Of a stretch of 64,000 bases of DNA, positions 3,861 through 26,076 are shown in pieces (position 1 is the stretch's first letter; each line of letters begins with the position of its first letter). The DNA is taken from contig OY759262.1 of the NCBI GenBank assembly GCA_963662155.1, positions 16,260,282-16,324,281 of the forward strand, written 5' to 3'. Position numbers and translations under genes: made by a program. This DNA comes from Lamellibrachia columna. Its lineage: Eukaryota; Annelida; Polychaeta; Sabellida; Siboglinidae. The notes below the pieces were generated by a model. The model saw only the letters and a program-made list of their open reading frames with translations. It ran no database searches and was not told where the DNA came from.

Positions 3861-3897
3861 AACGACCGAGTGTGTGGATAGTCTCTTCATTCGCATC

Positions 3898-4269: not shown

Positions 4270-4273
4270 ATAC

Positions 4274-5062: not shown

Positions 5063-5098
5063 GATGGTACGCTGCGTGTCCGTAGCACAGTGTTCGTC

Positions 5099-5350: not shown

Positions 5351-5355
5351 CAGTC

Positions 5356-6703: not shown

Positions 6704-6733
6704 CCGCGCACATGACGACACTGCATTCGAGGA

Positions 6734-7054
6734 ATGACACACGACGCGACACCACCACCACCACCGACCTGCCTCACCACCATCGACGAGGAGGAGGATA
6801 AGGAGCAGGGCGCGGATTGTACTGACGCTGTACCGAACGAGCCAGACAGCACTCCCTGGCATATTTTCGGTACCGCGTGTCCCAAAGAGGAGATCGTGTT
6901 TCTGTGTCAGGTCGTCGTCCTGTACACGGTCATTCTGATCAGCATTTACAACCTGACGACAGGTCGCGGCGATTCTAATCTGTGGACGGCTCTGTTGAGT
7001 AGTTCGTTGGGTTACCTACTGCCCAATCCCACGTTGAGACGCCATGGCGACTGA
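6734..7054 (+). CDS. 106-aa membrane protein of the element
   Basis: The N-terminal third is Pro/Thr/acidic and low-complexity. It is followed by WHIFGTACPKEEIVFLCQ, a transmembrane segment (VVVLYTVILISIYNL) and a second hydrophobic stretch ending GYLLPNPTLRR. The C-terminal two thirds are almost unchanged in unit 2 while the N-terminal repeat length varies. It overlaps the following capsid gene by 11 nt. A protein of this shape recurs in such elements, but I know no assigned function. Confidence 0.7.
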   Translation: MTHDATPPPPPTCLTTIDEEEDKEQGADCTDAVPNEPDSTPWHIFGTACPKEEIVFLCQVVVLYTVILISIYNLTTGRGDSNLWTALLSSSLGYLLPNPTLRRHGD

Positions 7055-8150
7055 TTTCTACATGACGCTGCCTAGCAACGCTTCCATGAAGATGCACCCC
7101 GACAACACCTTGACCCATTACGTCACGGCCTTGCCCCAACGCATCGATCTTACCGGCGAGTGGGAGTGTGGGTTGGCCGAGGTCCAGTATCCGCACACCT
7201 GGTACAACGTCACGGATACCGACGTCTGGTTCTTCCTCAACACGATCGATGCTACGGACTCGTCCATACGTTCGAAGTTGCCGTGTGGGTATTACGACGA
7301 TCCGTTTACGTTGCTGTATCACGTCAACAAGGGACTGTCCAATATGCGGACGTATGAGACACAGGCTCAGATCAGTTATAGTACCGTCACTCAGAAAATG
7401 ACGTTACACATGACGGCGAACACCATGTTCACCATACCGTACCACAGCGCGGTGGCGACCTTGTTGGGATTCCGCGGACCCGTAGCCAGCCCGGCGGAGT
7501 CGGGTGTGTCGTCTCCCATCCTCCCCATCGACACCCGCCATCCCGACTCGTCGTACCCCTTCCACATCGAGGCCGACGATGTGGTGAACCTGACGCAGGG
7601 GTTCGACACCCTCTACATCTACACGGACGTCGTGGAGTCGCGTATAGTGGGCGACGCTCTCGCACCTCTGTTGCGCGCCGTTCCGATCAGCGGACGTAAC
7701 GGCGACAGGGTGTCCGCTCGTTTCACCAACGTGCACTACGTACCGCTGTTGCGCTCGAACTTCGACTCGATAGAGGTGGATATAAGGAACGACATGGGTC
7801 GACGCGTGCCATTCGAATCCGGTAGAGTGACGGTGCGCTTCATTTTCGTCGACGCAAGCCCGGACTGTTCTGATGAATTACAACGATTATTACGCGCGCC
7901 AGGCTGGCGGTGCGCTGCCCTACTTCGCCGGTGCGCAATACCAGCGAGGTCACGGACTGGGCAGTCTGTTCGGCAGTCTGTTGCGCAGCGCCATGCCGCT
8001 CATCAAGAGAGGTGCCGTGGCGTTGGGCAGGGGAGCGTTGAAGACCGGCGTTCGCATAGCCGGCGACGTCTTATCGGGTCAGAACATAAAAACGGCTGCC
8101 AAAAGACGCGTCACCGACGCCATCGGCAGTATTCGAGCCCCTCCTGGTAA
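7044..8150 (+). CDS. Penton-like minor capsid protein; open frame overruns next gene
   Basis: The first ~270 codons look like the single-jelly-roll minor capsid (penton) protein of Polintons: MATDFYMTLPSNAS at the start, the block WECGLAEVQYPHTW, and a C-terminal strand region FDSIEVDIRNDMGRR. The frame then stays open for about 90 more codons across the next gene, giving Arg-rich sequence that is probably not natural protein. No stop was found near the start of the next gene in this frame, so the true C-terminus is unclear. Unit 2 is truncated earlier. Confidence 0.75.
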   Translation: MATDFYMTLPSNASMKMHPDNTLTHYVTALPQRIDLTGEWECGLAEVQYPHTWYNVTDTDVWFFLNTIDATDSSIRSKLPCGYYDDPFTLLYHVNKGLSNMRTYETQAQISYSTVTQKMTLHMTANTMFTIPYHSAVATLLGFRGPVASPAESGVSSPILPIDTRHPDSSYPFHIEADDVVNLTQGFDTLYIYTDVVESRIVGDALAPLLRAVPISGRNGDRVSARFTNVHYVPLLRSNFDSIEVDIRNDMGRRVPFESGRVTVRFIFVDASPDCSDELQRLLRAPGWRCAALLRRCAIPARSRTGQSVRQSVAQRHAAHQERCRGVGQGSVEDRRSHSRRRLIGSEHKNGCQKTRHRRHRQYSSPSW

Positions 8151-8274
8151 ACGTATAAAACGAACGGCCGCAAAGGCGACATTCACTGCAGTCAAGCGCC
8201 GCCGCAAGAAAAGGACGTCCCCGAAACGCGCTGCCGACATATTCGACGACGACAAAGATGGCGTTCGTGCATAG
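7873..8274 (+). CDS. Basic, membrane-active core-like protein (pVI/pX-like)
   Basis: 133 aa beginning MNYNDYYARQAGG. It holds an amphipathic Gly/Leu segment (GHGLGSLFGSLLRSAMPL) and a Lys/Arg-rich C-terminal third (KRRRKKRTSPKR), and ends with an acidic tail. Adenovirus pVI and pX combine the same properties: a capsid-internal, DNA-binding, membrane-lytic peptide precursor. A Gly-Gly or Gly-Ala pair near the N-terminus could be processed by the element's adenain-like protease. It overlaps the MCP start by 17 nt. Confidence 0.7.
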   Translation: MNYNDYYARQAGGALPYFAGAQYQRGHGLGSLFGSLLRSAMPLIKRGAVALGRGALKTGVRIAGDVLSGQNIKTAAKRRVTDAIGSIRAPPGKRIKRTAAKATFTAVKRRRKKRTSPKRAADIFDDDKDGVRA

Positions 8275-9574
8275 ACAGTCGTGCGAGGGAGTCAAGTCCG
8301 AGCTGGATCTCTTTACCGTACCCCCCACTCAGAACTGCATCGTCGAGAGTCACGTGGTGGAACATCAACCCACGGCCTCTCTGGACTCTGGAGGACCGAT
8401 AGAATTCTTCATCCCCGGATCGGGAGACGATTACATGGATCTCGCCAACACGATGCTACACTTGCAGGTGAAGGTGACGCGAGCCAACGGTAACCCTATC
8501 GACGCGGGCGAACCCGTGGGACCGGTGAACAACTGGTTGCATGCGCTGTTCAGCAATGTCGACCTCTCCCTGAACAACACGCAAGTGACCTCTTCGTCCT
8601 TCAACGCGTACCCGTATCGAGCCTTCATAGAGACGCTGTTGAGTTACGGATCCGACGCCAAGTCGACGCAGATGACGAATCAGCTGTGGTACAAGGACAA
8701 GGCCAGTCGCATGCACGCCACCGAGCTAGCCGCCGGACCCGATCCTAACCCCGGGTTCGTGACTCGTCGAGAGTACATATCCAACAGTCGCGTGGTCGAC
8801 ATGATAGGTCGTCTCCACGTGGATATGTTTCTGCAGGATAAATTCCTGATCAACGGCGTCGACGTCAAGTTACGCCTGGTGCGCAGTAAGCCCGAGTTTG
8901 CGCTGTTGGCTGCTGGAGCGAACGAGTACTTGATAACCGTCGTCAACGCGTCCTTGTTCGTCAAGAAGGCCACCATCGCTCCGGCCGTGCAGAAGGCTCA
9001 CATCTTGGCTCTCGATCGGACCACGGTCAAGTATTCGTTACGACCCGTCGAAACCAAGGTGTACTCCATTCCCACGGGCGCTCTGTCGCACACGCACGAG
9101 AACCTGTTCCTCGGCGCCCTGCCGAAACGTCTCGTACTGTGCTGCATCGACAACGACGCCTACAACGGCACGTACGCCACAAACCCGTTTCACGCCAAGA
9201 ACAACGCCATCAGCTTCGTCGCCGTGTACGTCGACGGTCGTCAGATACCCGCCAAACCCTTCCAGCCCAACTTCGCAGACAACCTCTTCGCCAGGAGCTA
9301 CGCGAGCATGTTCACCTCGACCGGCAATGTGTGGCAGGACAAAGGGAACTGTCTGACACGCGAAGAGTACCGAGACGGCTACACCTACTTCTGTTTCGAC
9401 CTGACCCCCGACCAGTGCGACGGTCCCTGCTTTAATCTGGTACAAAAGGGCAACCTGCGCTTAGAATTTCATTTCCGTGCAGCGCTTCAGACCACCGTGA
9501 ACGTCGTCGCCTACGCCGAATTCGAGTCCGTGCTGGAAATCGACAAGAACCGCAACGTCATCTACGACTACTGA
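8258..9574 (+). CDS. Major capsid protein, double jelly-roll type
   Basis: 438 aa with the hallmarks of Polinton/adintovirus major capsid proteins: LFTVPPTQNC near residue 20, GGPIEFFIPGSGDDYMDL near residue 50, and a long body of alternating beta-rich segments. It forms the trimeric hexon-like capsomer. Its position directly before the protease is typical. Differences from unit 2 cluster in residues ~65-145 (probably outer loops) while the C-terminal third is nearly identical, so surface change is likely. Confidence 0.9.
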   Translation: MAFVHRQSCEGVKSELDLFTVPPTQNCIVESHVVEHQPTASLDSGGPIEFFIPGSGDDYMDLANTMLHLQVKVTRANGNPIDAGEPVGPVNNWLHALFSNVDLSLNNTQVTSSSFNAYPYRAFIETLLSYGSDAKSTQMTNQLWYKDKASRMHATELAAGPDPNPGFVTRREYISNSRVVDMIGRLHVDMFLQDKFLINGVDVKLRLVRSKPEFALLAAGANEYLITVVNASLFVKKATIAPAVQKAHILALDRTTVKYSLRPVETKVYSIPTGALSHTHENLFLGALPKRLVLCCIDNDAYNGTYATNPFHAKNNAISFVAVYVDGRQIPAKPFQPNFADNLFARSYASMFTSTGNVWQDKGNCLTREEYRDGYTYFCFDLTPDQCDGPCFNLVQKGNLRLEFHFRAALQTTVNVVAYAEFESVLEIDKNRNVIYDY

Positions 9575-9575
9575 G

Positions 9576-10055
9576 ATGGACACCCTGCAGATCGCCCGTC
9601 TACTGGCGATGGATCCGAAGACCGCATCCGTCTTTGGTGGCGTCGTACCCCGAGATGGACTGCCTGCAACAATTGACGCTCTGCCGATCGCCTTCGTGTG
9701 CAACACCGACGACGCCGACGAACCGGGCGAACACTGGATAGCACTGTACCTGTCCTCCGCCGGGCGCGGCGAATACTTCTGTTCGTACGGTCTGCCGCCT
9801 CGTCACGCGGCGTTCCGCACCTTCTTGAACAAACACTGTTCCGAGTGGACTCATAACAGCACGAGACTCCAGAGTCCTCTGTCTAACGTTTGCGGACAAT
9901 ATTGCGTCACTTATATCATGCTTCGTTGTAACGGCGCTCCTATGAGAACTTTCGTCAACGCTTTCCACACCGATCTGGTCGCTAACGATTGTCGCGTGTT
10001 CGATTGGATTAGGCTGCTAAAAAAGGGTATACCGTACTATAACGTGTCATACTGA
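9576..10055 (+). CDS. Adenain-like cysteine protease (C5 type)
   Basis: 159 aa, starting one base after the MCP stop. The catalytic His is H53 (GEHWIALYL) and the nucleophile C106 (SNVCGQYC). Between them, where related proteases carry an acidic residue (a Phe-Asp/Glu-x-Tyr/Phe-Gly arrangement), this protein has cysteine: FCSYGLPP, C69. The same change occurs in unit 2. The enzyme would mature virion proteins. Either it works as a dyad or the family branch is unusual. Confidence 0.88.
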   Translation: MDTLQIARLLAMDPKTASVFGGVVPRDGLPATIDALPIAFVCNTDDADEPGEHWIALYLSSAGRGEYFCSYGLPPRHAAFRTFLNKHCSEWTHNSTRLQSPLSNVCGQYCVTYIMLRCNGAPMRTFVNAFHTDLVANDCRVFDWIRLLKKGIPYYNVSY

Positions 10056-10056
10056 G

Positions 10057-10150
10057 CCTCTGGCGCGGTGGTCGCTCCACCCGTAAGCTCGCCCTCGAAC
10101 CTCTGGCGCGGTGGAGACACCCGTAAGTTCGCGACCTCTGGCGCGATGGT
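10057..10150 (+). repeat. Three imperfect copies of a CTCTGGCGCG motif after the protease
   Basis: The core CCTCTGGCGCGRTGG recurs at 10,057, 10,099 and 10,134, each followed within ~20 nt by CCGTAAG or CGCAAG. The same three-copy arrangement is kept in unit 2 (28,261, 28,303, 28,338). Its conservation in a 3' untranslated position suggests a regulatory or RNA-structural role. Confidence 0.6.
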
Positions 10151-10265
10151 CACCATTCGCAAGTCGCCTCGACTTCATCATCATCATCATCTTCATCATA
10201 CCCGGCTCGTTGTATCCAATCGCATACGATCGCCTCGTTTGTACTGCTGCTGCTTTGTTGTATTT

Positions 10266-10271
10266 AATAAA
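10266..10271 (+). terminator. Poly(A) signal after the structural gene block, unit 1
   Basis: AATAAA in TTTAATAAAATACGTG, about 210 nt after the protease stop. The matching signal in unit 2 is at 28,464-28,469. It is the first canonical signal after a block of genes with little or no spacing. Confidence 0.65.
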
Positions 10272-10309
10272 ATACGTGTGCACCGTACGATTGCGTTCGT
10301 CTCCTTACT

Positions 10310-10555
10310 GGGTCAACGACCCTTCGGCACATACACGTAACTAGGTCACTGTTCGTTCCTCCTCCGGTCGCTAGGGGCGCGGCACGCGCATGCGCGCGAC
10401 GCTGCGCCGCCGCCGCCAGGGGGCGCTCCAAGGTCTAGTGCTGCTTTCTGATTGGCTGCGCGCACTCATTAGCGGTGGGCGATATTAGGGTGGTTTTCCT
10501 TTGATCTTTTGATGCTCTTGATAAGAGGTCCCAAAAACCTCTGCTAACTACTAAC
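10310..10555 (+). promoter_or_regulatory. Conserved right-end region of unit 1 with CTCF-like motif and inverted CCAAT
   Basis: Homologous to the right end of unit 2 but without the tandem duplication seen there. It contains CCGCCAGGGGGCGCT (10,413-10,427), close to the bilaterian CTCF consensus, and GATTGGCTGCG, an inverted CCAAT box. It precedes the accessory region, so it could act as its upstream control region. Confidence 0.5.
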
Positions 10556-10683: not shown

Positions 10684-10917
10684 TCACATCCGCGTTACAT
10701 CAGACCCATTTTTTACCTGCTGGTGAATTCGAATGAACTTTCTTAGTTGCATAAGTAACTCCCCGAGCGTATTCTGACCCCTTCGATTGTCGTAGGTTAA
10801 AGCACCCCAAAAACCCTCTGTACTTCTCACCCATTCCATCATTTGTCTCTCTCCCGTGTTAAAACACGCATTCACTACATTACATAAACGAGTGCTGTCA
10901 CCTCGATTTTTTGTCCG
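10684..10917 (-). pseudogene. Antisense relic of a NADAR-domain gene (C-terminal half)
   Basis: The minus strand encodes GERQMMEWVRSTEGFWGALT, then GQNTLGELLMQLRKFIR, which matches the C-terminal half of the intact NADAR protein at 13,131 (EWVRSREGYWGALTY, GQNMLGHILMRVREFIR) and the family pattern E..D/E.xWG...G.N.LG..LM.vR. The frame opens without a good methionine (GTG) and the N-terminal FLSNFY half is absent. It is too different from the intact gene to be a recent inversion. Confidence 0.75.
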
Positions 10918-13130: not shown

Positions 13131-13616
13131 ATGAACCGTCCTATAAAGTTTAGAGGCGGCAGACATTTCCTGTCCAATTTCTACGCGTGCAGGATACACG
13201 TGTGGAATAGACAATTTACCAGTGTCGAAAGTGCCTACCAATGGCGGAAATGCATGCATCATGGCGACATGCAGACTGCAGAAAAAATGCTGTCCACGCG
13301 CACGGGTCTACAGGCGAAACATCTCAGCAAGAGCATACGAGAAAAGGAACAGTTACGCGCTGAATGGAACCAACAACGATATTCACTAATGTATGCGTTA
13401 GTTGCTGTTAAATATCGCGATCCAACCCTACGTAAACGACTGCTAGACACTGGGTATTCCCAGTTGAATGAATGGGTCAGGAGTCGGGAAGGATACTGGG
13501 GCGCACTGACATACAGTGGTCAAGCCGGTCAGAACATGCTAGGGCATATATTAATGCGAGTACGCGAGTTCATTCGATTGCGCAATACTCCCGCCAGACG
13601 ATCACAAGACCGATGA
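13131..13616 (+). CDS. NADAR-domain protein (YbiA-like)
   Basis: 161 aa spanning a full NADAR fold: RGGRHFLSNFYACRIHVW at residues 9-26, FTSVESAYQWRKC at ~29-41 with the conserved glutamate, then WVRSREGYWGALTY and GQNMLGHILMRVREF. Family members act on N-glycosidic bonds of nucleotides: bacterial YbiA-type proteins on riboflavin intermediates, and NADAR partners of DarT-type toxins removing ADP-ribose from guanine. In a DNA virus it could undo ADP-ribosylation of nucleic acid by the host, but this is inference. It is the only unspliced stand-alone gene of the accessory region. Confidence 0.85.
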   Translation: MNRPIKFRGGRHFLSNFYACRIHVWNRQFTSVESAYQWRKCMHHGDMQTAEKMLSTRTGLQAKHLSKSIREKEQLRAEWNQQRYSLMYALVAVKYRDPTLRKRLLDTGYSQLNEWVRSREGYWGALTYSGQAGQNMLGHILMRVREFIRLRNTPARRSQDR

Positions 13617-13711
13617 ACAGAGTACGGCGAGATAGCACACATCCAGCAGCAGCATCACGCGCTCGACCAAGGGTTGGTGATAAGAAAGCGCGCCATAGAC
13701 AGTGGGAGGTG

Positions 13712-13718
13712 TATATAA
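13712..13718 (+). promoter_or_regulatory. TATA box upstream of the RPA-like/SIM gene cluster
   Basis: TATATAA in GGTGTATATAAACCC, 95 nt before the ATG at 13,807. All coding segments to 16,334 run on the plus strand without another convincing TATA box, so one promoter could serve the whole spliced cluster. Confidence 0.65.
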
Positions 13719-13806
13719 ACCCGACGCAGAGTGAACGAGGCACAAAACCGCACTCCGATCCACAGCACACGTCGATACTTACTACCAGCATCAGCAGAGA
13801 ACGAAA

Positions 13807-14274
13807 ATGGCCGCTCAACAAACCGAGATGATGTCAGTCAGCCAACTCGAGAAGGAGGTATGTAACGGTACTTATATATTTAGACGGCCGTTAACCATAG
13901 TACAATGTGCCGTTCAAGATAAATATATAGTATATCCATCATGTCAGCAGTGTAACAAACGTGTGAGTCCCGAAAACAATGGCTTTGTGTGTCCTATCCA
14001 TCGATGGCAGCGTGGTGTAGTGTATCAGTTCGCTATGCGTATCCTCCTACAAGACGCCATCGGTAGTGAAGTGTGGGCAACTTTATTTAATGCCAAGGCT
14101 GTCCAGGTGTTGGGATTCACGGCTAACGAATACATGACCATGAAGACAGATGCCGAGCGGTATGCAGCACTGGACATTTTGCGGGGGGCCCAAGTCATGG
14201 TGACCATTCGGAAACGCGAGGCGGGACAGTATGTAAATTACACGGTGTCAGACTTGGAAGTAGTAACAGTGTGA
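13807..14274 (+). CDS. RPA70-like ssDNA-binding protein with zinc ribbon
   Basis: 155 aa resembling the C-terminal OB domain (DBD-C) of replication protein A large subunit. A zinc ribbon is formed by C46, C49, C62 and H65 (CQQCNKRVSPENNGFVCPIH). The following RWQRGVVYQFAMRILLQDAI and WATLFNAKAVQVLGFTANEY match the OB strands and the LF-x-x-x-A helix. It likely coats single-stranded DNA during replication. Codon 17 ends in a strong donor (GTATGT at 13,858), so the first 17 codons can also be spliced to the exon at 14,291, with the whole OB domain then being intron. Confidence 0.82.
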   Translation: MAAQQTEMMSVSQLEKEVCNGTYIFRRPLTIVQCAVQDKYIVYPSCQQCNKRVSPENNGFVCPIHRWQRGVVYQFAMRILLQDAIGSEVWATLFNAKAVQVLGFTANEYMTMKTDAERYAALDILRGAQVMVTIRKREAGQYVNYTVSDLEVVTV

Positions 14275-14290
14275 ATCGTTCTGTTGACAG

Positions 14291-14842
14291 GCTGTCGCTA
14301 CCGTCGCTGCTGCAGCTACTGCAGTTGCTACCGGAAGTAGTAGTGACGTCATCGACGTTGAGAGCCGCTCTAAGGTAATGGAATGGTTACATGCTAATAG
14401 TTCGGAGATACTATTCTCCTCCTCGGTGGACAGCTGTTCACCGCCACCAGTAATTATAATATCAGATGACGAGGGGGAGGATAGCATTAGCAGTAGCAAT
14501 AGCGATGATATGGAGGCCACGGTGAGTGGTTTAGATAGGATACGGGATCGAGCCGAAGCCATGACGAATGAAAATAATTTCTATAAGGCACTAGAGGTCG
14601 CCAGCGTGCGATATGCCAGTGACGAGGTGGAACGCATAATGAATTTAAATGACGATAAGGATCGTTACGTACCATCGTCCAGCATGGTCATGCACGTCTT
14701 GCGGTGGTTATCTATAGATGTCATTGCAACGTGTGGGAATATGACATGGCGTAACCAAGTGACAGAATTGGTTAGAAAGAGTATGTACGAAAGATACAAC
14801 GATGTACAGGGCGACGCGGATGAATATGCCGAATGTGACTAG
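14291..14842 (+). CDS. SIM-containing accessory protein, alternative exon 2 product
   Basis: A CAG acceptor ends at 14,290, 16 nt after the RPA-like stop, and the open frame from 14,291 is in phase with the 17 shared codons from 13,807. An unspliced start at 14,378 is also possible (154 aa). The first part is Ala-rich, followed by DVIDVE and PVIIISDDEGED, both hydrophobic cores beside acids as in SUMO-interacting motifs. Donors in phase 0 lie at 14,375 (GTAATG) and 14,522 (GTGAGT). Beyond 14,522 the frame encodes a mostly helical domain (MHVLRWLSIDVIATCG). Family not recognised. Confidence 0.6.
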   Translation, partial: AVATVAAAATAVATGSSSDVIDVESRSKVMEWLHANSSEILFSSSVDSCSPPPVIIISDDEGEDSISSSNSDDMEATVSGLDRIRDRAEAMTNENNFYKALEVASVRYASDEVERIMNLNDDKDRYVPSSSMVMHVLRWLSIDVIATCGNMTWRNQVTELVRKSMYERYNDVQGDADEYAECD

Positions 14843-14859
14843 TTCTTTCTGTTCAATAG

Positions 14860-15759
14860 ATGGGGCTGACGCAGCTGCAGAGAGCTTACAAGCGTCAGTT
14901 GACGGAGCTGTACGATGCCGATGACGAGGACGAGGACGAGGTGACGCCATCGCGGAAACGACAGAAGACAGCCCCAGCAGATGGCGACACCAGAGTGGTG
15001 GTGGTGAAGCACCGGTGCACGGGGCAACGCGTCACACTGTCATCATCACCATCGCAGGACTACTACTGCGACTCGCCACCAGCCAACCAAGAGGCGTTGG
15101 CGGAGCTACCGTGGGGACCGGTGGAGTTGTTGTCTGACTCTGACTCTGACTCGGAGACTGTCATCGACTCTGCCATCCTCAACACCCCCCCTCATTTCTA
15201 CAATGACGTCGACGAGGATGCTATCGCCTCATCCCCCGCTCACGAGAAAGAGAACGATGACAATTTTACATTTAGTCCTGCATCGCCACCACCACTGACA
15301 CAAAGCACACCCGAAGCCATGACAATACGGAGACTGTATGTATTCCCGGATGAAACCGTCGTTGTGACAGCAGACGGCGAACAAATCCGGATACCGGATC
15401 AGAACACTAAATCACACCCGATGAAGATCACTCAGTCGACGTCGACCGAGGACCTGCAGTCGTCGACCGTCGAGGACCCGAAGCCGTCGACGACGACGAC
15501 GACGACGACGACCATCGAGGACCCGAAGCCGTCGACGTCGACCACAGAAGAAGAAGAAGAACCGAGAAAGGTGTGTTTTTTAGACATGCAACACAACATT
15601 GCTGGCGTAATAGTGGCGCAGTGGAGGGCATCAGCTCCATCCACAGTAGAAGAAGTAACTGTGGACGTGTGCAGATCACTAGCAGTCACCATGCTGTCGG
15701 CACAATACCAAGAAATAATAATGAAGTATGTGCGTTGCGCTATCCGTCGACAGCCGTGA
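14860..15759 (+). CDS. Acidic SIM-containing accessory protein, exon 3
   Basis: The ATG at 14,860 directly follows a pyrimidine-rich acceptor (TTCTTTCTGTTCAATAG), 17 nt after the previous stop, and is in phase with the donor at 14,522. The 299 codons contain an acidic cluster beside a nuclear-signal-like RKRQK (DEDEDEVTPSRKRQK), a strong SIM (VELLSDSDSDSE), and Ser/Thr repeats around EDPKPST. The EEEEEPRK at residue 237 ends in a donor (GTGTGT, 15,571), again in phase 0. Reading through it gives a helical 62-residue C-terminus. It may be a transcriptional or SUMO-pathway regulator, by inference. Confidence 0.6.
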   Translation: MGLTQLQRAYKRQLTELYDADDEDEDEVTPSRKRQKTAPADGDTRVVVVKHRCTGQRVTLSSSPSQDYYCDSPPANQEALAELPWGPVELLSDSDSDSETVIDSAILNTPPHFYNDVDEDAIASSPAHEKENDDNFTFSPASPPPLTQSTPEAMTIRRLYVFPDETVVVTADGEQIRIPDQNTKSHPMKITQSTSTEDLQSSTVEDPKPSTTTTTTTTIEDPKPSTSTTEEEEEPRKVCFLDMQHNIAGVIVAQWRASAPSTVEEVTVDVCRSLAVTMLSAQYQEIIMKYVRCAIRRQP

Positions 15760-15878
15760 ACAGTAGTATGTTATGAACAGTAGTCGGTAGTATGTAGTAG
15801 GCAGTATGTATGCACTTATAACCACGGTATATGAACATTAGTAGTAGTATTAGTAGTATTGTTGTTGTTGGTATGTAG

Positions 15879-15983
15879 AATGAAGTGTACGACGAGGCAC
15901 CCGTACTCCCAGCCAGCATTCGGAAGCGATCTGGAGTATTGAACGCCACGTATATGACGTCGTCAACACAATATTATTATTAG
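15879..15983 (+). CDS. Alternative terminal exon a (APVL motif), predicted
   Basis: Open frame of 34 codons and stop immediately after a TAG acceptor ending at 15,878, in phase 0 with the donor at 15,571. It begins NEVYDEAPVLPASIRKRSG: acidic, then A-P-V-L, then basic. The preceding tract is T/G-rich, so the acceptor is weaker than those of exons b and c. Confidence 0.4.
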   Translation, partial: NEVYDEAPVLPASIRKRSGVLNATYMTSSTQYYY

Positions 15984-16073
15984 TAAACATAACCGAGTTA
16001 GTAGGTAGTAGTAGGTGTTGTTGTATTACGTAATATGGAGTGGAATATTAGTATCTTTTAATTTGTTCCGTAG

Positions 16074-16181
16074 GATGATGATGACGTACCTGTGCTACCG
16101 ATTGAAGCACGTAGGCGAGCAAGCCGTGAATTAATAGTGCTACTACTAGAATATATCATATCGACACACGATGAACAATAG
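16074..16181 (+). CDS. Alternative terminal exon b (VPVL motif), predicted
   Basis: Thirty-five codons and a stop after the acceptor TTTGTTCCGTAG ending at 16,073, again phase 0. It begins DDDDVPVLPIEARRRASREL and continues with a hydrophobic helix (IVLLLEYII). The order acidic run, PVL, arginines, hydrophobic helix is shared with exon c. Confidence 0.45.
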   Translation, partial: DDDDVPVLPIEARRRASRELIVLLLEYIISTHDEQ

Positions 16182-16199
16182 GTCTATTTCTTTATGTAG

Positions 16200-16334
16200 G
16201 AGGAGGTGAAGGAGGAGGAGGTGAAAGAGGAGGAGGAGGAGGCACCCGTACTAGCAAGAGACGAGAGGACACGCACATTACATAGATTACTACAGATAAT
16301 TGTTGATTTTATGATTGAAACCCCCGCATTTTAA
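16200..16334 (+). CDS. Alternative terminal exon c (APVL motif), predicted
   Basis: Forty-four codons and a stop after the acceptor TATTTCTTTATGTAG ending at 16,199, phase 0. It starts with a long Glu/Lys run, then EAPVLARDERTRTL and a hydrophobic helix (LLQIIVDFMI). The Glu run continues the composition of the exon 3 end (EEEEEPRK). Confidence 0.45.
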   Translation, partial: EEVKEEEVKEEEEEAPVLARDERTRTLHRLLQIIVDFMIETPAF

Positions 16335-16524
16335 GAAGCACCGTTTGCAACGGAATAACAGTAGTTAGTCGCTCTCTCTCTCTTTTATTGTATGATTGTA
16401 GTTGCATGACATAGAGTAATGTCTATATATATATATATATATATACCTACAGACTTATATAGTATTCATCATCATCATTGTACGTAACCTCTGTCGTGGT
16501 GTAAAAGCCCACAAGTTAATAACC

Positions 16525-16617
16525 ATGGAACTAGCCACTGGCGTATCGATAACCGATCGTAAGCTAGAGGTCACTGTCGCGGATGTAACAATCCCACAAA
16601 CCTTAAAGTCGTCATAG
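16525..16617 (+). CDS. Tiny ORF with good initiation context, uncertain
   Basis: Thirty codons from AACCATGG to TAG, beginning MELATGVSITDRKLEVTV. There is no counterpart to compare and no recognised motif. It lies before the cluster's poly(A) signal and may simply be untranslated sequence. Confidence 0.2.
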   Translation: MELATGVSITDRKLEVTVADVTIPQTLKSS

Positions 16618-16687
16618 TAATTATATAAGTCTAACCGTGTATATATGTATATGTATATTATGTATATGTCTATGTCAGTATATACTC

Positions 16688-16693
16688 AATAAA
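16688..16693 (+). terminator. Poly(A) signal of the accessory cluster
   Basis: AATAAA in TACTCAATAAAACGTC, about 350 nt after the last predicted terminal exon and 256 nt before the next polymerase start. It is the only canonical plus-strand signal between the RPA-like gene and PolB. Confidence 0.6.
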
Positions 16694-16839
16694 ACGTCAT
16701 ACAATGAATGAAACGTGTTGTCAGTGGTGTTGCCACGGTCTACATAGTGGAAAGAGAACCCGTAGCCATCGATAGTGGACACACAGTAGCCAATACCACA
16801 GGATCACACCTTAGGTCATACACCCTTCACCAATCACCA

Positions 16840-16948
16840 TGCACCAACCACCACCACAGCCACCACCACCGCCACCACCACCACCACACGTACTATATAG
16901 CTGTACTAAGGACCGCTGTCTCTCTCAGTTGTAGATACGTAGAGCATC
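16840..16948 (+). promoter_or_regulatory. Upstream region of the unit 2 polymerase
   Basis: A CCA/CCACCG-rich run (16,845-16,890) is followed by CTATATAG (16,893-16,900), a TATA-like box 49 nt before the PolB ATG. The short distance implies a leader of only about 20 nt. Confidence 0.45.
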
Positions 16949-19900
16949 ATGAAACGTCACCAATGTCGTCACTGCGGACTGGTGCTCGACACGTATGCAA
17001 CGCTAAAACGCCACCTAGCGAGACATGCAACACCGACAGTGACTGAACACACGTATTCGGTGGCGCAGCCATTAGAGGTGCCAATAGAGGTGCCACCTAG
17101 CGACCAGGCAAAGCGAACGAAATATTCGTGTAAATGCGATGCAACGTTTGAGATATGGGACGATCTGCAACAACATGTGAGGTCCGTATGTCGTCTTAGC
17201 AGTAGCAGCAGCAGCAGTAGCAGTAGAAGTAATAGAAAACAGACCACAGTGTACACATGTGCGAAATGTGGAAAGAAGTTCACTAGACTCGGTGACCTGA
17301 CCAGGCACGCGCGAATAGCGTGTACCGACGACGACGACGACGTCACGAAGCCACCATCGCCGAAGAGATCAATCAGGGAAGACACCACACCCCACCATCC
17401 ACTCGTTACCGATGCAGACCCCATAGACCCACCTGCTCGACTCCCCTTCGCCGACAACCTGTCGACGGAACTGTTAGATGTCGTACGAGCGCACTGGTCG
17501 ACCATACGGACACGTGTAACGAGAGGTCCTCTCCAGTGCAGGTACGATTACAGATTAACGACTCTGGACACGACCGTTCTAGAGACGCCGTTGAAGAACG
17601 TGTTCCAGGAACAGACCAACGCTTTCAAGATTAACCTCAGTTACGGGTTCATTCTGAGGAACAAGAACACGGGTCAATACAAGTACTACCATCCCTCGTG
17701 CAACTGCTGTGGACGCTACCTGGACGAGCCCAGTCTCATCACCAACAGCAAGGACTTTGATAAGTTCCTCGAACGCATCCGAGAAACCGACGTCTTGCAA
17801 TGGGCCATCAATCAAAGACCGGATTCGGCGTGGGTGTGCGAACTCGTGACCAATGTCACATTTTTCGTCAATCGCATCATCGATCACCCGATAGGATGTG
17901 TAGGAATGACCGACCTTCCAATGTACATCAAGAAGAACAAAGCCGTCATCGGATTGGAAAAGGAGCCCATCCATGCCAAGAGGTACAGTGACAACCTGTT
18001 TCTCTTCCGATGTCTGGCCCTGCATCGCGGATGTGAAAGTCGTCGATTGGAACCAGCTGTGAAGACGCTGTACGAGACTTACGCCCAAGACGGCGTACCC
18101 ATGGCAGCATTTGCCGGGGTCACGATGGACGACCTCTATCGTGTAGAGACCACGTTCCAAACGAATGTGTGCGTGTACAGTCTCGTACCACCGGATGGAG
18201 AGGATGGAAAGTCAACTGCAGAACTCGTTCGGCGCTCGGTACGTAAGTACCCTGACACACTCTACCTCAATCTTCACGAGACACATTTTTCCCTCATCCA
18301 GGATAGACGCATGTACTGTCACTCGTACAGATGTCGGAAGTGTGGGGCCTGTTTGTGGAAAGACGCATGCAGTCTACGCAACCACGAGAGCACGTGTACG
18401 GGGGGTGTGCGCCGAGTCTATCCTGGTGGCGTGTACCATTCGACTCCATCGGTGTTCGAACGTCTGGCAGACGAGAACATACGAGTGGCCGAAGCGTTGC
18501 AGTACTATCCGTACCGAGCCACCTTCGACTTCGAGTGTTGGTTCGACACCGAACACCTTCCGTCTGACAGTGCCCAGGTTCACTGGGTTGCGCATCACGT
18601 CCCGCTGAGCGTCAGCGTGGCATCCAACGTACCCGGACACGAACAGGTGACATGCATCGTCACGGATGGAGACACCAACAAGTTGGTGAGCACCATGATG
18701 ACTATCCTGCAATCGATGAGTGAGGCCGCGTACGACAAGATCAAAGACTCATACGATCATGTGTTGGAACAACTCGCAGAAGAGCTGACGAAATGGGACG
18801 CACGGGAGGCAGCTGCACGGGAGGCAGCTGCACGAGAGACCACCGAGAAGAAAGCTCGACCGGCAACCAATCCGTACAAAACGCTGATGGGACAACTGTA
18901 TGGATGGATGCGGCAGTTACCTGTCATCGGGTTCAATTCGGGGAAGTATGATCTCAATGCCATCAAACAGTTCCTCATACCGTACTTCCTGACGACTTCA
19001 AAGACCGTGGAACAAGACGAAGCCGAGGACGAGGACGAGAGGGAGCAAGAGGGCAACAAGACAGAAGAGAACGACGGCGTCGGGGCAATGTTCGTCATCA
19101 AACGCAACAACACTTTCATGTGTCTTTCGACGGATCAGCTGAAATTCTTAGACATGATCAACTACATAGCCCCCGGGTTCAGCTACGACAAGTATCTGAA
19201 AGCGTACGGATGCGAGGTGACGAAAGGTCATTTCCCGTACGAGTACATGGACCGGCTGGAGAGACTCGACGACACCGCACTTCCACCGAAAGAGGCCTTC
19301 TTCAGTCGACTGAAGAACGAAGGTATTTCAGACGAGAATTACGCCAGTTGTCAGGAGGCCTGGCGCGTCAATGGCATGACGACGTTGCGGGACTTTCTCG
19401 TCTGGTACAACAACAGGGACGTGGTTCCCTTTCTACAGGCCATCGACAGACAGTTCGCGTTCTATCGACAACGGGGAATAGACATGTTCAAGCAAGGTAT
19501 CAGCGTACCTGGTCTGACCCTGCTGTACCTGTTCAACGACCTTCCAGAGAAGACCTACTTTACCATCTTCAACGAGAAGAATAAAGACCTGCACGACCTC
19601 GTTAAAGCGAACATTGTAGGCGGGCCTTCGATCATCTTTCATCGCTATCACGAGAAAGGGGTCACCACGCTACGTCAGAACGAGTACGGAGAGGCGGCTC
19701 GTCCTTGTCGAGCGATCGTCGGATACGATGCGAACGCACTGTACCTGTGGTCGCTCATGCAAGACATGCCCATGGGATGGTACACGCGACGACGAGCAGA
19801 GAAGGACTTCCGCCCCGAATCGGCGCAGCTGTACGGACAGATGGCTGGAGAATGGTTGACGTGGGAATCCGAACGCACGGGACGTCCCATACGACATCAG

Positions 19901-21454
19901 ATCAACGGACGAGAGAAGAGAATAGGCAAACATCGGGTGGACGGATGGTGTAGCGAGACGAAGACGGCTTATCAGTTCCAAGGGTGCTTTTTTCACGGTT
20001 GCTCGTGCAACCGTGACGAGGTGAACGCCGTCAACGGGAGACCAATGACGGAACTGCTCGCCGAGACCCGAAAGACCACCGCCTACCTACGACACTTTGT
20101 CACAGTCGTCGAGTTGTGGGAATGCGAGTGGAAAGAGATGAGACGAACCCCGGCCGTACGCAAGTGTGTGGATGCAGCATTTCCCCGACGTCGACACGTG
20201 CGATGGACGATGACGTCACAACAGATCCTGAACGGAGTGCGTGCAGGAACCGTGTTCGGCATGATCGAGTGCGACATACGCGTACCGGAAGAATTGCGCG
20301 CGCACTTTGCCGAGATGCAGCCCGTGTTCAAGAACATCAGTCTGATACGCGAGGATCTCGGTCCGTTCATGCGCCGATACGCCGAAGAACACGACATCAT
20401 GAAGACTCCGCGACGCATGCTCGTGGGTAGTTATTGCGGCGATAAGATACTGCTCGCAACGCCACTGCTGCGATGGTATCTGGACCACGGTCTCGAGGTA
20501 CTGCACGTGTACCAGGTCGTCGAATACGATCCTATTCCGTGTTTCCGGCGGTTCGGCGATGCAGTGTCCAAGGCCCGACGCGAGGGCGACGTTCACCAAG
20601 ACAAGACCATCATCGCGGACACCATGAAGTTGCTGGGGAACTCGGGCTACGGAAAGACCATCACCAACGTCGACCGACATCGTGACGTCAGCTACTGCAC
20701 GGAGAAGGCGGCATCGATCCTGGTCAACAATAAACGGTTCCGACAACTCGATATCGTCGTCGACGATGCGTACGAGATAGAGTTGAACAAGAAAATCGTC
20801 AAGTACACCCTACCCGTACACGTGGGATTCTTCGTTCTGCAGTACGCCAAGATGCGCATGTTGCAGTTCTATTACGACTTCATCATCCGATACGTGGAGC
20901 GCCCTCTGTTCGAGTACTGCGAGATGGATACAGATTCCGCCTATTTGGCCTTGACCGGCGAGTCCGTCGACGACCTCGTGACCCCGGAACTACGAGAACA
21001 TTATTTCCGACATCGTTCCGAATGGCTCCCATCGGAATGTTGCGACGACCATCGGAACGACTACGTGCGCTGTCGTCTCGCCAATCGACCGTGGGTCGGA
21101 GACGAGGCGTGCTGTAAGGCGCGAAGAGCGTTCGACAAGAGGACACCGGGTCTGTTCAAGGTCGAGTGGTCCGGTGCCGGGTTCGTGGGGTTGTGTAGCA
21201 AGACGTACTATTGTTTCGGAGCCACCGACAAGTACAGCACCAAAGGACTGAGCAAACGGCACAACACCATCGACAAGGACGCGTTCCTGGCGGTGCTCAC
21301 CAACCGTCGGAGCGGAGGTGGATCGAACCGTGGTTTCCGGGTGCATAAATCTACCGTGATGACGTACATGCAGACACGGGATGCACTCACCTTCTTTTAC
21401 GCCAAACGCGTGGTGCACGAGGACGGGGTGACCACGGGTCCGGTGGACGTGTAG
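16949..21454 (+). CDS. polB: Protein-primed family B DNA polymerase, full length
   Basis: 1,501 aa. The N-terminus has three Cys/His fingers (starting C6, C61 and C104), a conserved segment with FRCLALHRGC near residue 350, and a fourth finger at 462-483. The exonuclease acids lie in FDFECWF (D527, E529), GFNSGKYD (N663, D668) and YNNRD (Y820, D824). Polymerase motif A is YDANALYLW (D927), motif B KLLGNSGYGK (from K1227) and motif C DTDS (D1327, D1329). Between A and B sits VDGWCSETKT...FHGC (from ~997), a nuclease-like insertion seen in related polymerases. The protein appears intact. Confidence 0.95.
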   Translation: MKRHQCRHCGLVLDTYATLKRHLARHATPTVTEHTYSVAQPLEVPIEVPPSDQAKRTKYSCKCDATFEIWDDLQQHVRSVCRLSSSSSSSSSRSNRKQTTVYTCAKCGKKFTRLGDLTRHARIACTDDDDDVTKPPSPKRSIREDTTPHHPLVTDADPIDPPARLPFADNLSTELLDVVRAHWSTIRTRVTRGPLQCRYDYRLTTLDTTVLETPLKNVFQEQTNAFKINLSYGFILRNKNTGQYKYYHPSCNCCGRYLDEPSLITNSKDFDKFLERIRETDVLQWAINQRPDSAWVCELVTNVTFFVNRIIDHPIGCVGMTDLPMYIKKNKAVIGLEKEPIHAKRYSDNLFLFRCLALHRGCESRRLEPAVKTLYETYAQDGVPMAAFAGVTMDDLYRVETTFQTNVCVYSLVPPDGEDGKSTAELVRRSVRKYPDTLYLNLHETHFSLIQDRRMYCHSYRCRKCGACLWKDACSLRNHESTCTGGVRRVYPGGVYHSTPSVFERLADENIRVAEALQYYPYRATFDFECWFDTEHLPSDSAQVHWVAHHVPLSVSVASNVPGHEQVTCIVTDGDTNKLVSTMMTILQSMSEAAYDKIKDSYDHVLEQLAEELTKWDAREAAAREAAARETTEKKARPATNPYKTLMGQLYGWMRQLPVIGFNSGKYDLNAIKQFLIPYFLTTSKTVEQDEAEDEDEREQEGNKTEENDGVGAMFVIKRNNTFMCLSTDQLKFLDMINYIAPGFSYDKYLKAYGCEVTKGHFPYEYMDRLERLDDTALPPKEAFFSRLKNEGISDENYASCQEAWRVNGMTTLRDFLVWYNNRDVVPFLQAIDRQFAFYRQRGIDMFKQGISVPGLTLLYLFNDLPEKTYFTIFNEKNKDLHDLVKANIVGGPSIIFHRYHEKGVTTLRQNEYGEAARPCRAIVGYDANALYLWSLMQDMPMGWYTRRRAEKDFRPESAQLYGQMAGEWLTWESERTGRPIRHQINGREKRIGKHRVDGWCSETKTAYQFQGCFFHGCSCNRDEVNAVNGRPMTELLAETRKTTAYLRHFVTVVELWECEWKEMRRTPAVRKCVDAAFPRRRHVRWTMTSQQILNGVRAGTVFGMIECDIRVPEELRAHFAEMQPVFKNISLIREDLGPFMRRYAEEHDIMKTPRRMLVGSYCGDKILLATPLLRWYLDHGLEVLHVYQVVEYDPIPCFRRFGDAVSKARREGDVHQDKTIIADTMKLLGNSGYGKTITNVDRHRDVSYCTEKAASILVNNKRFRQLDIVVDDAYEIELNKKIVKYTLPVHVGFFVLQYAKMRMLQFYYDFIIRYVERPLFEYCEMDTDSAYLALTGESVDDLVTPELREHYFRHRSEWLPSECCDDHRNDYVRCRLANRPWVGDEACCKARRAFDKRTPGLFKVEWSGAGFVGLCSKTYYCFGATDKYSTKGLSKRHNTIDKDAFLAVLTNRRSGGGSNRGFRVHKSTVMTYMQTRDALTFFYAKRVVHEDGVTTGPVDV

Positions 21455-21462
21455 AAAAGGCG

Positions 21463-22119
21463 ATGCACGCTGCACTCGTTTCATACGCAATCATGGATGC
21501 ACGATGGAAACACCCCTTCACGTGCATCGTCGCCGGACCGACGGGGTGCGGCAAGAGTACTTTCGTGACGCGTATGTTGCGTCACGCCGCTGCGATGATC
21601 GATCCACCACCCGAACAAATAACGTGGTGTTACGGAGAATGGCAAGAGGCTTACGCAACGACGAACTTGGGTCACGTGCGATTCGAGGAAGGGTTACCGA
21701 CGGCGGCCATGTTCGATCCGACAACGAGGAACCTCATCGTCATAGACGATCTCATGGCAGAAACGGACGAACGGGTCACGACCTTGTTCACTAAAAAAAG
21801 TCACCACAGGAACACGTCCGTGCTGTATCTCGTACAGAACCTGTTCCCTAAAAACAAAGAGAGTGGCACCATCAGTCTGAATTCGCAGTACATGGTGGTG
21901 TTCAAGAATCCACGTGACGCATCGCAGATGTCGACCTTGGCGCGGCAGATGTATCCGGGACGCGGCAAGTTCGTGCAAGAGGCGTTTAAAGACGCCACGG
22001 CGGTACCGTACGGTTATCTATTGGTCGATCTCAAACAGGACACGCCCGAGGACATGCGTCTGCGCACGGCCATCTTTCCAGACGACGGTGTTCAGTACGT
22101 GTACCTGCCGAAGGTATAA
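21463..22119 (+). CDS. A32-like DNA packaging ATPase, unit 2
   Basis: 218 aa with the Walker A GPTGCGKST and Walker B NLIVIDD in the same places as in unit 1. Only a handful of substitutions are seen (for example a Glu to Asn change after YATT, and Ala to Glu before AFKDAT). It begins 8 nt after the PolB stop, three less than in unit 1 because one TAG-adjacent triplet is missing. Confidence 0.88.
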   Translation: MHAALVSYAIMDARWKHPFTCIVAGPTGCGKSTFVTRMLRHAAAMIDPPPEQITWCYGEWQEAYATTNLGHVRFEEGLPTAAMFDPTTRNLIVIDDLMAETDERVTTLFTKKSHHRNTSVLYLVQNLFPKNKESGTISLNSQYMVVFKNPRDASQMSTLARQMYPGRGKFVQEAFKDATAVPYGYLLVDLKQDTPEDMRLRTAIFPDDGVQYVYLPKV

Positions 22120-22156
22120 AACGACCGAGTGTGTGGATAGTCTCTTCATTCGCATC

Positions 22157-22525
22157 ATGTCTACCCTGGTGAAGAGACACATCGTGTGCATACAGGCTCT
22201 GGCCAGAGTCAAGAACAACAAAATTAAAAAGGCCATCATCGCCAACGCCGACGCCGATCTGCTGTGTGCACTAGCCGAGTGTGCCTACAACATACTAACA
22301 AAAAACATTCCATTGACCGCTTTACAGAGGCGACGATTGCATAAATACAAGGCGAAGTTACGCGAGTTGGCTAATAGACGAACGCTCGCTGCCAGAAGAA
22401 GACGCATCTTGCTGCAACCGCAGGTTGGCGCGGGACAGAGCGGCGGTTTCCTATCGGCCCTCTTAGCACCGTTGGCAAGTTCGGTCTTGATACCCTTGCT
22501 CCAACAGGTGCTGACCCAACGGTAG
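22157..22525 (+). CDS. Small basic protein with hydrophobic C-terminus, unit 2
   Basis: 122 aa from the ATG equivalent to 3,898. It keeps the basic N-terminus, the arginine run and the C-terminal GGFLSALLAPLASSVLIPLL segment, while several hydrophilic positions between them differ from unit 1. Conservation of the hydrophobic tail supports a membrane or capsid role. One residue is missing near the C-terminus relative to unit 1. Confidence 0.75.
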   Translation: MSTLVKRHIVCIQALARVKNNKIKKAIIANADADLLCALAECAYNILTKNIPLTALQRRRLHKYKAKLRELANRRTLAARRRRILLQPQVGAGQSGGFLSALLAPLASSVLIPLLQQVLTQR

Positions 22526-22529
22526 ATAC

Positions 22530-23309
22530 ATGGAACACGCACGCAAGATGGCCTTGGTGGACCCGCGCCTGTTGGACACGCTTCGGTCACCCCCACCCCC
22601 ACCCGCGACCGACACCTTAGGCAAGAAGGTGCAAGCCCTCGATGACGAGATGAAGACCATCCTAGATAGAACGGACCTAGACGACGGGACCAAGGTGACC
22701 CTGTATAATCAGGTGTTGCAGCGGTACAACGTCTTGGCCACTAAACGCATCAAGGAACCGCTACGCGTGGTCACGGTGAACGAGTCGGAGGTGGCGTCGG
22801 AGTCGGGGTCGGAGGGTGCAGTCCGCGCTCCTATTAGCGGACTGGAGGCCACCGTCTTGGCCACCGTACCCAGGACCATGCAGGCCAAAGCCAGCCGTTT
22901 GATGGAGCATCTCAAGAGAGACATCACGTGGACCGCTCGCGGTGAACTGATACACGAAGGCGTGCCGGTTGTCGGAAGTAACGTGGTGGATCTCGTTAAT
23001 GATCTGTTGCGTAAGAGCAAGACCGCTCCGACGGGTTGGCAGCCGTTCGCACGACAACTCCGTGCCATCAACCTACCCATGACGTTGGTCGGTAACGTCG
23101 CCAGAAGAGCCTACATACGTCCGGAGCCATCGATCACTCCCTCTCGTCGATCCAGTCCTACTCCGCGTGCTGCATCAGGTAGTGCACGAAGATCGCTAAG
23201 TTGGACACCCCTCGGCCGTAAGAGTCGTCGAATGGAACATACCATGCCCACCCCACCCCCCGAAAGACGCAAGGCTTTGACGTCATTGGCTGGTTGGGAC
23301 AACCTATAG
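22530..23309 (+). CDS. Conserved 259-aa element protein, unit 2
   Basis: Counterpart of the gene at 4,274, three residues shorter because the alanine run is reduced. The N-terminal helical half is nearly identical. Substitutions accumulate in the Pro/Ser/Arg-rich tail, which ends RRKALTSLAGWDNL. Function unknown. Confidence 0.75.
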   Translation: MEHARKMALVDPRLLDTLRSPPPPPATDTLGKKVQALDDEMKTILDRTDLDDGTKVTLYNQVLQRYNVLATKRIKEPLRVVTVNESEVASESGSEGAVRAPISGLEATVLATVPRTMQAKASRLMEHLKRDITWTARGELIHEGVPVVGSNVVDLVNDLLRKSKTAPTGWQPFARQLRAINLPMTLVGNVARRAYIRPEPSITPSRRSSPTPRAASGSARRSLSWTPLGRKSRRMEHTMPTPPPERRKALTSLAGWDNL

Positions 23310-23345
23310 GATGGTACGATGCGTGTCCGTAGCACAGTGTTCGTC

Positions 23346-23567
23346 ATGTCGCCCGATCCACAGGACCTCGTTTACCGTTCCATCGTCGGTGCGATATTTA
23401 TCAGTGGACTTTACATGATTGCTCACGGTCTAGTCCTCAGTTTTCTGCCACAGACGTTATTCGAACCCCCCTTGCTCGACGAATGGACCATTCCTCGTCC
23501 ATCCACACACCCTCCCCCCGCATCGCGCAAGGCTTCGTCGTCATTGGCTGGATGGAACAACGTATAA
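23346..23567 (+). CDS. 73-aa small membrane protein, unit 2
   Basis: Start chosen at the ATG matching unit 1 (MSPDPQDLVYRSIVGAIF); an upstream in-frame ATG at 23,319 is absent from unit 1. One hydrophobic segment is followed by a proline-rich region and the end PPPASRKASSSLAGWNNV. That ending repeats the end of the 259-aa protein upstream, showing a local tandem duplication. The frame is whole here and broken in unit 1. Confidence 0.6.
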   Translation: MSPDPQDLVYRSIVGAIFISGLYMIAHGLVLSFLPQTLFEPPLLDEWTIPRPSTHPPPASRKASSSLAGWNNV

Positions 23568-23595
23568 GGTGGTACGACGCGTATCCGTAGCAGTC

Positions 23596-23730
23596 ATGCT
23601 CATCGATCCACAGGACACGTACCGATCCATCGTCGCTGCGCTATTGTTCGAAGGACTTACCGTGCTGGGAGACGTTGCAGCCGACATTCTTATACAACAG
23701 GTGTTATTCCGACTATGGTTACTCCGCTAG
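23596..23730 (+). CDS. 44-aa hydrophobic protein, unit 2
   Basis: Same length and start (MLIDPQDTYRSIVAALLF) as at 5,356, with Leu to Val near the C-terminus as the only change noted. It overlaps the next ORF by 16 nt. Confidence 0.5.
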   Translation: MLIDPQDTYRSIVAALLFEGLTVLGDVAADILIQQVLFRLWLLR

Positions 23731-24943: not shown

Positions 24944-24973
24944 CCGCACACATGACGACACTGCATTCGGGAA

Positions 24974-26039: not shown

Positions 26040-26076
26040 CGCTTCATTTTCGTCGACGCAGGTCCAGACTGTTCTG

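Follow-up and report, generated by a model that had tools for sequence, protein, structure and literature searches.

The window, a 64,000-nucleotide stretch of the Lamellibrachia columna genome (contig OY759262.1, positions 16,260,282 to 16,324,281), carries two same-orientation copies of an adintovirus/Polinton-type element, positions 1 to 10428 matching positions 18260 to 28618 with 93 to 94% identity. The subject here is the early region of the second copy, which lies between an open reading frame (ORF) with a NADAR domain (13131 to 13616) and the polymerase gene (16949 to 21454). Its layout and its relatives make it very probable that this region is an early transcription unit in which each exon is either spliced to the next or read through, giving alternative C-terminal tails from one promoter. 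The frames of exons 1, 2, and 3 with their read-through tails are called ORF1, ORF2, and ORF3. The predicted features are as follows (a slash marks the exon end at each donor; SIM, SUMO-interacting motif; OB, oligonucleotide/oligosaccharide binding; RPA70, 70-kDa subunit of replication protein A).

13712 to 13719, plus strand: TATA box of the putative early promoter, TATATAAA
13807 to 13857, plus strand: exon 1, shared N-terminus, 17 codons with an ATG start
13858 to 13863, plus strand: donor 1, GAG/GTATGT
13858 to 14274, plus strand: exon 1 tail, RPA70 C-terminal-like OB fold (PF08646; E = 9.9e-13, 48.5 bits versus a cutoff of 28.5)
14275 to 14290, plus strand: acceptor 1, TTGACAG
14291 to 14374, plus strand: exon 2, Ala-rich
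14348 to 14365, plus strand: SIM-like motif 1 (VIDVES)
14375 to 14380, plus strand: donor 2, AAG/GTAATG
14375 to 14521, plus strand: exon 2 extension with a SIM-like motif
14450 to 14476, plus strand: SIM-like motif 2 (VIIISDDEG)
14522 to 14527, plus strand: donor 3, ACG/GTGAGT, of the window's lineage
14522 to 14842, plus strand: exon 2 tail, predicted three-helix domain (AlphaFold2)
14771 to 14776, plus strand: site equivalent to the donor of other lineages, weak here, TTG/GTTAGA
14843 to 14859, plus strand: acceptor 2 with pyrimidine tract, TTCTTTCTGTTCAATAG
14860 to 15570, plus strand: exon 3, acidic and Ser/Pro/Thr-rich
15121 to 15138, plus strand: SIM-like motif 3, within exon 3
15571 to 15576, plus strand: donor 4, AAG/GTGTGT
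15571 to 15759, plus strand: exon 3 tail, conserved, predicted three-helix domain (alignment of 30 homologues)
15879 to 15983, plus strand: candidate terminal exon 4, weak
16074 to 16181, plus strand: putative terminal exon 5
16200 to 16334, plus strand: putative terminal exon 6, moderate
16688 to 16693, plus strand: polyadenylation [poly(A)] signal; the plus strand has no other AATAAA or ATTAAA from 13701 to 16949

The four donors begin (first intron base, the G of GT) at 13858, 14375, 14522, and 15571, and the five acceptors end (last intron base, the G of AG) at 14290, 14859, 15878, 16073, and 16199. A coordinate and frame check placed all nine sites where an earlier sequence-only reading of the window had put them, and all are in phase 0: the exons 13807 to 13857, 14291 to 14374, 14291 to 14521, and 14860 to 15570 each have a length that is a multiple of three, and the frames downstream of all five acceptors open in phase 0. 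The nested phase 0 sites are real. That reading had also placed every acceptor shortly after the preceding stop, which is correct for three of the five; in acceptor order, the distances are 16, 17, 119, 90, and 18 bases. Site strengths were scored with position matrices, by which, between 13807 and 16400, the four donors were the top four of 199 GT dinucleotides, and the acceptors ranked 1, 2, 4, 8, and 27 of 205, the weakest being that at 15878 (rank 27). Donors of at least 4.5 bits were denser in the early ORFs (3 per 1,920 bases) than in control ORFs (2 per 11,142 bases). The reality of the core sites, leading from exon 1 through exon 2 to exon 3, was settled by their conservation in 81 other copies of the region.

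These copies were drawn mainly from the host genome (G000; 880 Mb in 30 contigs), which holds at least 150 copies of the early region (with an ORF1 query, 150 of 1,115 candidates were scored, and all 150 matched). Querying with ORF2 of L001, a contig in a published genome bin of a Lamellibrachia anaximandri symbiont that is probably tubeworm DNA, gave at least 152 matches in G000 (150 scored of 869 candidates). The comparison set consisted of 82 sequences, namely, the window, L001, and 80 G000 loci hand-picked to span the identity range. Excluded were L002, which is the window copy; L003 and L050, which overlap L010 and L051; and the close relatives L004 to L009 (99 to 100% in ORF1). Identity among the 82 ranged from 50 to 99.7% (median, 65%), and they clustered into 59 groups at 98% linkage, five at 90% (41, 20, 13, and 7 copies and L072 alone), and two at 70% (41 and 41 copies). 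The last two clusters are taken as two deep groups, the window's lineage (41 copies) and the others (41 copies). L051 and L001 are probably one locus and therefore not independent.

The motif TATA[AT]A occurs 40 to 140 bases before the exon 1 ATG in 77 of the 82 copies. Counted from this ATG, the donor 1 position is in phase 0 in 80 copies, the exceptions being L063 (out of phase) and L076 (no ATG). The donor 1 pattern GT[AG]NG[TC] is conserved in 81/82 copies though the encoded residue varies (Cys, Ser, or Gly); in L072, the donor is broken and its position is still in phase. The AG of acceptor 1 is present in all 82 copies, with the exact TTGACAG in 80, and donor 2 reads GT[AG]A in all 82. 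Exon 2 varies in length among the copies, yet this length is a multiple of three in each of them. The head ATG of ORF2 (14378 in the window) is present in 42 copies and missing in 40, so that ORF2 appears to need splicing.

Acceptor 2 was recognized by pattern in 75/82 copies and by eye, as an AG, in six more (L052, L055, L059, L068, L070, and L080); the place is lost in L082. In L069, L071, L072, and L074, the acceptor 2 stretch is apparently tandemly repeated, with several acceptor-like copies in a row. Only 5 of 75 copies open exon 3 with an ATG, and since the start codon is missing in the other 70, ORF3 also appears to need splicing. An AYKR-like motif of exon 3 lies in frame 0 in 69/75 copies (frame 0 being tried first) and in no frame in six, of which four look tandemly repeated and two have diverged. 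These counts bear on the possibility that the region holds three ordinary adjacent genes with ATGs of their own (13807, 14378, and 14860), the splice signals having arisen by chance. Each ORF of the window does have a head ATG, and database proteins often start there, but the start codons of ORF2 and ORF3 are missing from 40/82 and 70/75 copies, and the pyrimidine tracts and AG dinucleotides between the ORFs are conserved although non-coding. This account is largely refuted, and we consider it very improbable.

The donor that would feed exon 3 depends on the lineage. Donor 3 reads GTGAGT in 41/41 copies of the window's lineage and in 0/41 of the others, 22 of which have a weaker GT there. At the position equivalent to 14771, the window's lineage has GTTAGA in 41/41 copies, whereas 38/41 of the others have GTGAGA, in phase 0 in 38/38 and as AAG/GTGAGA in 35. 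The strong in-phase donor predicted for exon 3 is thus a different one in the two deep groups; the donor at 14522, proposed from the window sequence, is strong in the window's own lineage, but the other lineages would mostly use the in-phase donor at the 14771 equivalent. A relative of ORF2 in the databases, the partial protein P0232 from Lamellibrachia satsuma, passes into exon 3-like sequence exactly at the 14771 equivalent, as seen at the protein level. Among other strong GT dinucleotides in ORF2, one near 14627 is in phase 0 in 27 copies, and there are further single cases. The search of related elements that the sequence-only reading had proposed as a check found the splice phases of the core chain conserved in both deep groups, and this strongly supports a chain from exon 1 to exon 2 to exon 3.

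Selection was also seen on the read-through tails. The exon 1 tail matched replication factor A protein 1 in the PDB (E = 2.1e-4) and contains, as judged by eye, a C-x2-C...C-x2-H zinc-ribbon-like motif; the ratio of nonsynonymous to synonymous substitution rates (dN/dS) of the ORF1 tail was 0.27 for the 41 copies of the window's lineage and 0.30 for 66 intact-frame copies. The exon 2 extension had a dN/dS of 0.42 to 0.43 (intact-frame copies) and the ORF2 tail one of 0.47 (36 and 75 intact-frame copies). In the AlphaFold2 model of the exon 2 tail, the mean predicted local distance difference test score (pLDDT) was 64.5, with blocks of 68 to 88 over the helices, and a fold search with the ORF2 model gave no match at E values of ≤0.001. 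The ORF3 tail, with a dN/dS of 0.25 (35 copies), is modeled with helices at 235 to 258, 263 to 279, and 281 to 296 of ORF3 (pLDDT blocks of 62 to 89); it had no Pfam match above the cutoff and no PDB match by sequence. Homology between ORF2 and ORF3 was considered and rejected: profile comparison of the proteins and of the tails found none, though both tails are predicted to have three helices, and the similar three-helix layout in the models is suggestive only.

Since all three tails are under purifying selection, a choice at each step is credible. The same conservation would be expected if introns were removed constitutively to yield one long protein, with the ORF1 and ORF2 tails belonging to separate genes on other transcripts, as conservation alone does not tell whether one stretch of DNA serves a regulated choice or is used twice independently. 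The ORF1 frame, however, begins at the exon 1 ATG, and in roughly half of the copies ORF2 depends on a start further upstream, so that the tails probably share their start with the spliced forms; constitutive removal is in our view quite unlikely.

Beyond exon 3, the sites were found only in the window's lineage. The donor 4 pattern was found in 37/41 copies of this lineage and in 0/41 of the others; the four copies without it are L013, which has the terminal exons, L027, L045, and L049. The residues K-V-C at this donor are encoded by AAG/GTGTGT in 36/38 places, and the codons that follow vary. Exons 4, 5, and 6 were found, by strict patterns, in 35, 33, and 33 of the 41 window-lineage copies, respectively, and in 0/41 of the others. 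At least one of them is present in 34 of the 37 donor 4 copies, and each of the remaining three (L039, L041, and L042) has a single phase 0 terminal exon that shares the acidic run and carries an APMLP motif. It is similar to exons 4, 5, and 6 (0, 0, and 11 of 10,000 shuffles, respectively). The three exons also resemble each other, exons 4 and 5 at 0 of 5,000 shuffles, exons 4 and 6 at 1, and exons 5 and 6 more weakly (185), and this mutual likeness is consistent with a single last exon having multiplied in tandem in the window's lineage. Among 34 scannable copies of the other deep group, three (L088 to L090) have a strong phase 0 GT elsewhere in ORF3, and in three a strong acceptor follows within 700 bases; this group may have different last exons.

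Several observations weigh against the reading as a spliced unit or against its last step. In eleven other ORFs of the element, strong GT dinucleotides (≥3 bits) are in phase 0 in 6/9 cases. Because these control ORFs favor phase 0 too, phase agreement is weak evidence and was dropped as main evidence, and the argument that nine agreeing phases would be very unlikely was overstated. Length change by multiples of three may reflect slippage at trinucleotide repeats; non-coding sequence ahead of exon 5 changes in this way in 32/33 copies, and the exon lengths were therefore likewise dropped as main evidence. Strong phase 1 GT dinucleotides occur in ORF2 near 14502 in 18 copies and near 14553 in 3. 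Copies within one group are not independent, and dN/dS was taken only from copies with intact frames. The absence of exons 4 to 6 from the other deep group rests on the strict patterns, which missed the L039 exon. Exon 4 had a dN/dS of 2.2 (1.86 for its gap-free core) and no protein-level selection. One antisense control frame of exon 5 was nearly as low (0.40) as the exon 5 core (0.36), and the exon 6 core (0.80) was not under its control frames (0.58 and 0.46).

The results for exon 4 and the exon 6 core, together with the confinement of donor 15571 and exons 4 to 6 to one deep group as far as the patterns could find them, would fit an alternative in which splicing is limited to the core chain, donor 15571 arose by chance, and positions 15879 to 16334 are in decay or do not code for protein. 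This alternative would have to accommodate a donor sequence that is nearly frozen while the adjacent codons vary, the presence of such a terminal exon in all 37 copies with that donor, and an exon 5 whose frame is intact in 33/33 copies at a dN/dS of 0.44; we judge it unlikely. The evidence differs among the three exons. Exon 5, which has no head ATG, is supported as a coding exon by its frame and dN/dS. Exon 6, also without a head ATG, is moderately supported: its frame is intact in 31/33 copies (broken in L032 and L034), its acceptor AG is lost in L018, and its dN/dS over the whole exon is 0.50. Exon 4 is weakly supported and unproven, although its frame is intact in 34/35 copies.

The three SIM-like motifs noted from the window sequence are present, and they differ in conservation. 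A loose pattern for motif 1 was found in 26/82 copies, and this motif is not broadly kept. For motif 2, the place is kept: the pattern occurs within 8 codons of the position aligned with 14450 in 76/82 copies. Anywhere in the exon 2 extension, the pattern was found in 79/82 copies, compared with 6% of shuffled segments; a stricter form was found in 49/82. Motif 2 may be read as a candidate SUMO-binding site. The retinoblastoma protein (Rb)-binding motif LxCxE is absent from ORF1 to ORF3 and exons 4 to 6 of the window.

The sites, their phases, their conservation, the missing start codons, and the selection on the tails are the observed parts of the model of a splice-or-read-through unit. In this model, a single pre-mRNA would run from the TATA promoter at 13712 to the poly(A) signal at 16688, and the intron after each exon would either be retained, ending the protein in a local tail, or be removed by a phase 0 splice to the next exon. 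Unspliced exon 1 would yield an RPA70-like OB-fold protein, probably binding single-stranded DNA. Splicing to exon 2 would give an acidic SIM-bearing protein with a predicted three-helix end, and a further splice to exon 3 would give an acidic protein whose C-terminus is a different conserved domain, likewise predicted to have three helices. Copies of the window's lineage could also splice exon 3 from donor 15571 to a last exon, of which tandem duplication has left two or three; each combines an acidic run with an [AV]PVL motif and an additional end. From these elements we infer that RNA is spliced along this route and that the choice is regulated; the proteins could serve in replication and, by way of SUMO, as adaptors directed at the host.

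The sequence-only reading of the region is, overall, supported. Its proposal that every step from one promoter offers a choice agrees with the core chain, the selection on the tails, and the single TATA box and poly(A) signal; it fares less well at exon 4, which shows no protein-level selection, and at exon 6, whose core does no better than control frames. We lean, by a small degree only, towards a more specific version, in which the switch would choose between an OB-fold replication-type protein and a set of SIM-bearing adaptors with helical ends, with a lineage-dependent donor into exon 3; in one lineage, tandem copies of the last exon would have enlarged the set.

The early regions of adenoviruses and the T-antigen genes of polyomaviruses use one promoter and alternative splicing to make proteins with a shared N-terminus, differing tails, and short host interaction motifs. 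The layout predicted for the window's early gene from its conserved sites would be alike. Pfam, PDB, and fold searches found no relation of the early proteins to adenovirus or polyomavirus proteins, and the window differs from those systems in that its first tail has an RPA-like OB fold and its last exon appears tandemly multiplied. With the RPA 70-kDa subunit, the window shares the PF08646 domain and the four-ligand zinc-ribbon-like motif; in contrast to that subunit, it has a lone domain after a 17-codon exon, and Pfam matched no further OB domain in ORF1. In adenoviruses, regulated splice choice couples replication and host manipulation, and the two would be coupled here also if the choice is regulated. 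If the chain is used, ORF-based annotation of such elements would miss early proteins, because exon 3 lacks a head ATG in 70/75 copies and exons 5 and 6 have none. Duplication of the last exon in tandem illustrates a way in which such an element could vary a protein directed at its host, and the model predicts junctions at given bases, which makes it testable in tubeworm RNA data.

Among adintoviruses, "oncoid" accessory genes have been likened to proteins of small DNA tumor viruses (PMC10812802, citing Starrett et al. 2021), and the oncoid class is defined by short linear motifs (PMC11071296). The window's element resembles adintoviruses in its integrase with a C-terminal chromodomain and its IVa2-like ATPase, with a polymerase match just under the cutoff; it differs from the oncoids in that its early ORFs lack LxCxE. 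A −1 frameshift has been suggested to give alternate C-terminal domains of the adintovirus Penton (PMC11071296). The idea of C-terminal isoforms is the same, there by a predicted frameshift in a virion gene and here by conserved splice sites in an early gene. The sequence-only reading knew of no description of such an arrangement in Maverick-type elements. For the splicing layout this agrees with the literature searched, which gave no description of alternative splicing of such genes and did not include the founding paper (Starrett et al. 2021); the likeness to tumor viruses, however, had already been described with the oncoid genes (PMC10812802).

Downstream of the last exon and ahead of the poly(A) signal, a stretch at 16480 to 16600 is conserved; it occurs twice in L001 (2530 to 2645 and 2650 to 2735). 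It had no Rfam match, and its predicted fold was not notably more stable than those of shuffled sequences. Between 13000 and 17000, Rfam gave just a below-threshold match to mir-598 (25.3 bits versus a gathering score of 69).

The second element copy also encodes an IVa2-like ATPase, an integrase with a chromodomain, and further ORFs. The integrase (PF00665, 48.8 bits) and its C-terminal chromodomain (PF00385, 29.0 bits) both exceeded the Pfam cutoff, as did the packaging ATPase (Adeno_IVa2, 23.7 bits versus 21); the type B DNA polymerase (PF03175; E = 1.1e-5, 25.0 bits) fell just under its cutoff of 25.8. The definition of the adintovirus polymerase includes an N-terminal OTU-like domain (PMC11071296). 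For an adenain-like protease, there was a weak PDB match to the cysteine protease S273R (E = 0.041). An adintovirus hexon-type capsid protein is one recognizable by BLASTp against adintovirus references; the ORF at 26462 to 27778, examined as a possible candidate, matched nothing in Pfam or PHROG and nothing of significance in the PDB. No terminal inverted repeats were found around the second copy, the ends of which may lie elsewhere, and searches of viral contigs with the polymerase and with the ORF3 alignment found no relative. Directly upstream of the early promoter is the following feature.

13131 to 13616: NADAR-domain ORF (PF08719, E = 1e-19)

The C-terminal part of this ORF is also found upstream of the early region in L001 (393 to 512), and a NADAR relic lies on the minus strand at 10726 to 10863, near the end of the first element copy. 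A minus-strand ORF at 49773 to 53836, outside the studied element, resembles by eye a retrotransposon polyprotein (reverse transcriptase and integrase). L001 itself has near-identical ends, and a 98% match to its ORF2 occurs in G000, where the early region is seemingly paired at a distance of ~3 kb (C2:16116468 and C2:16119503).

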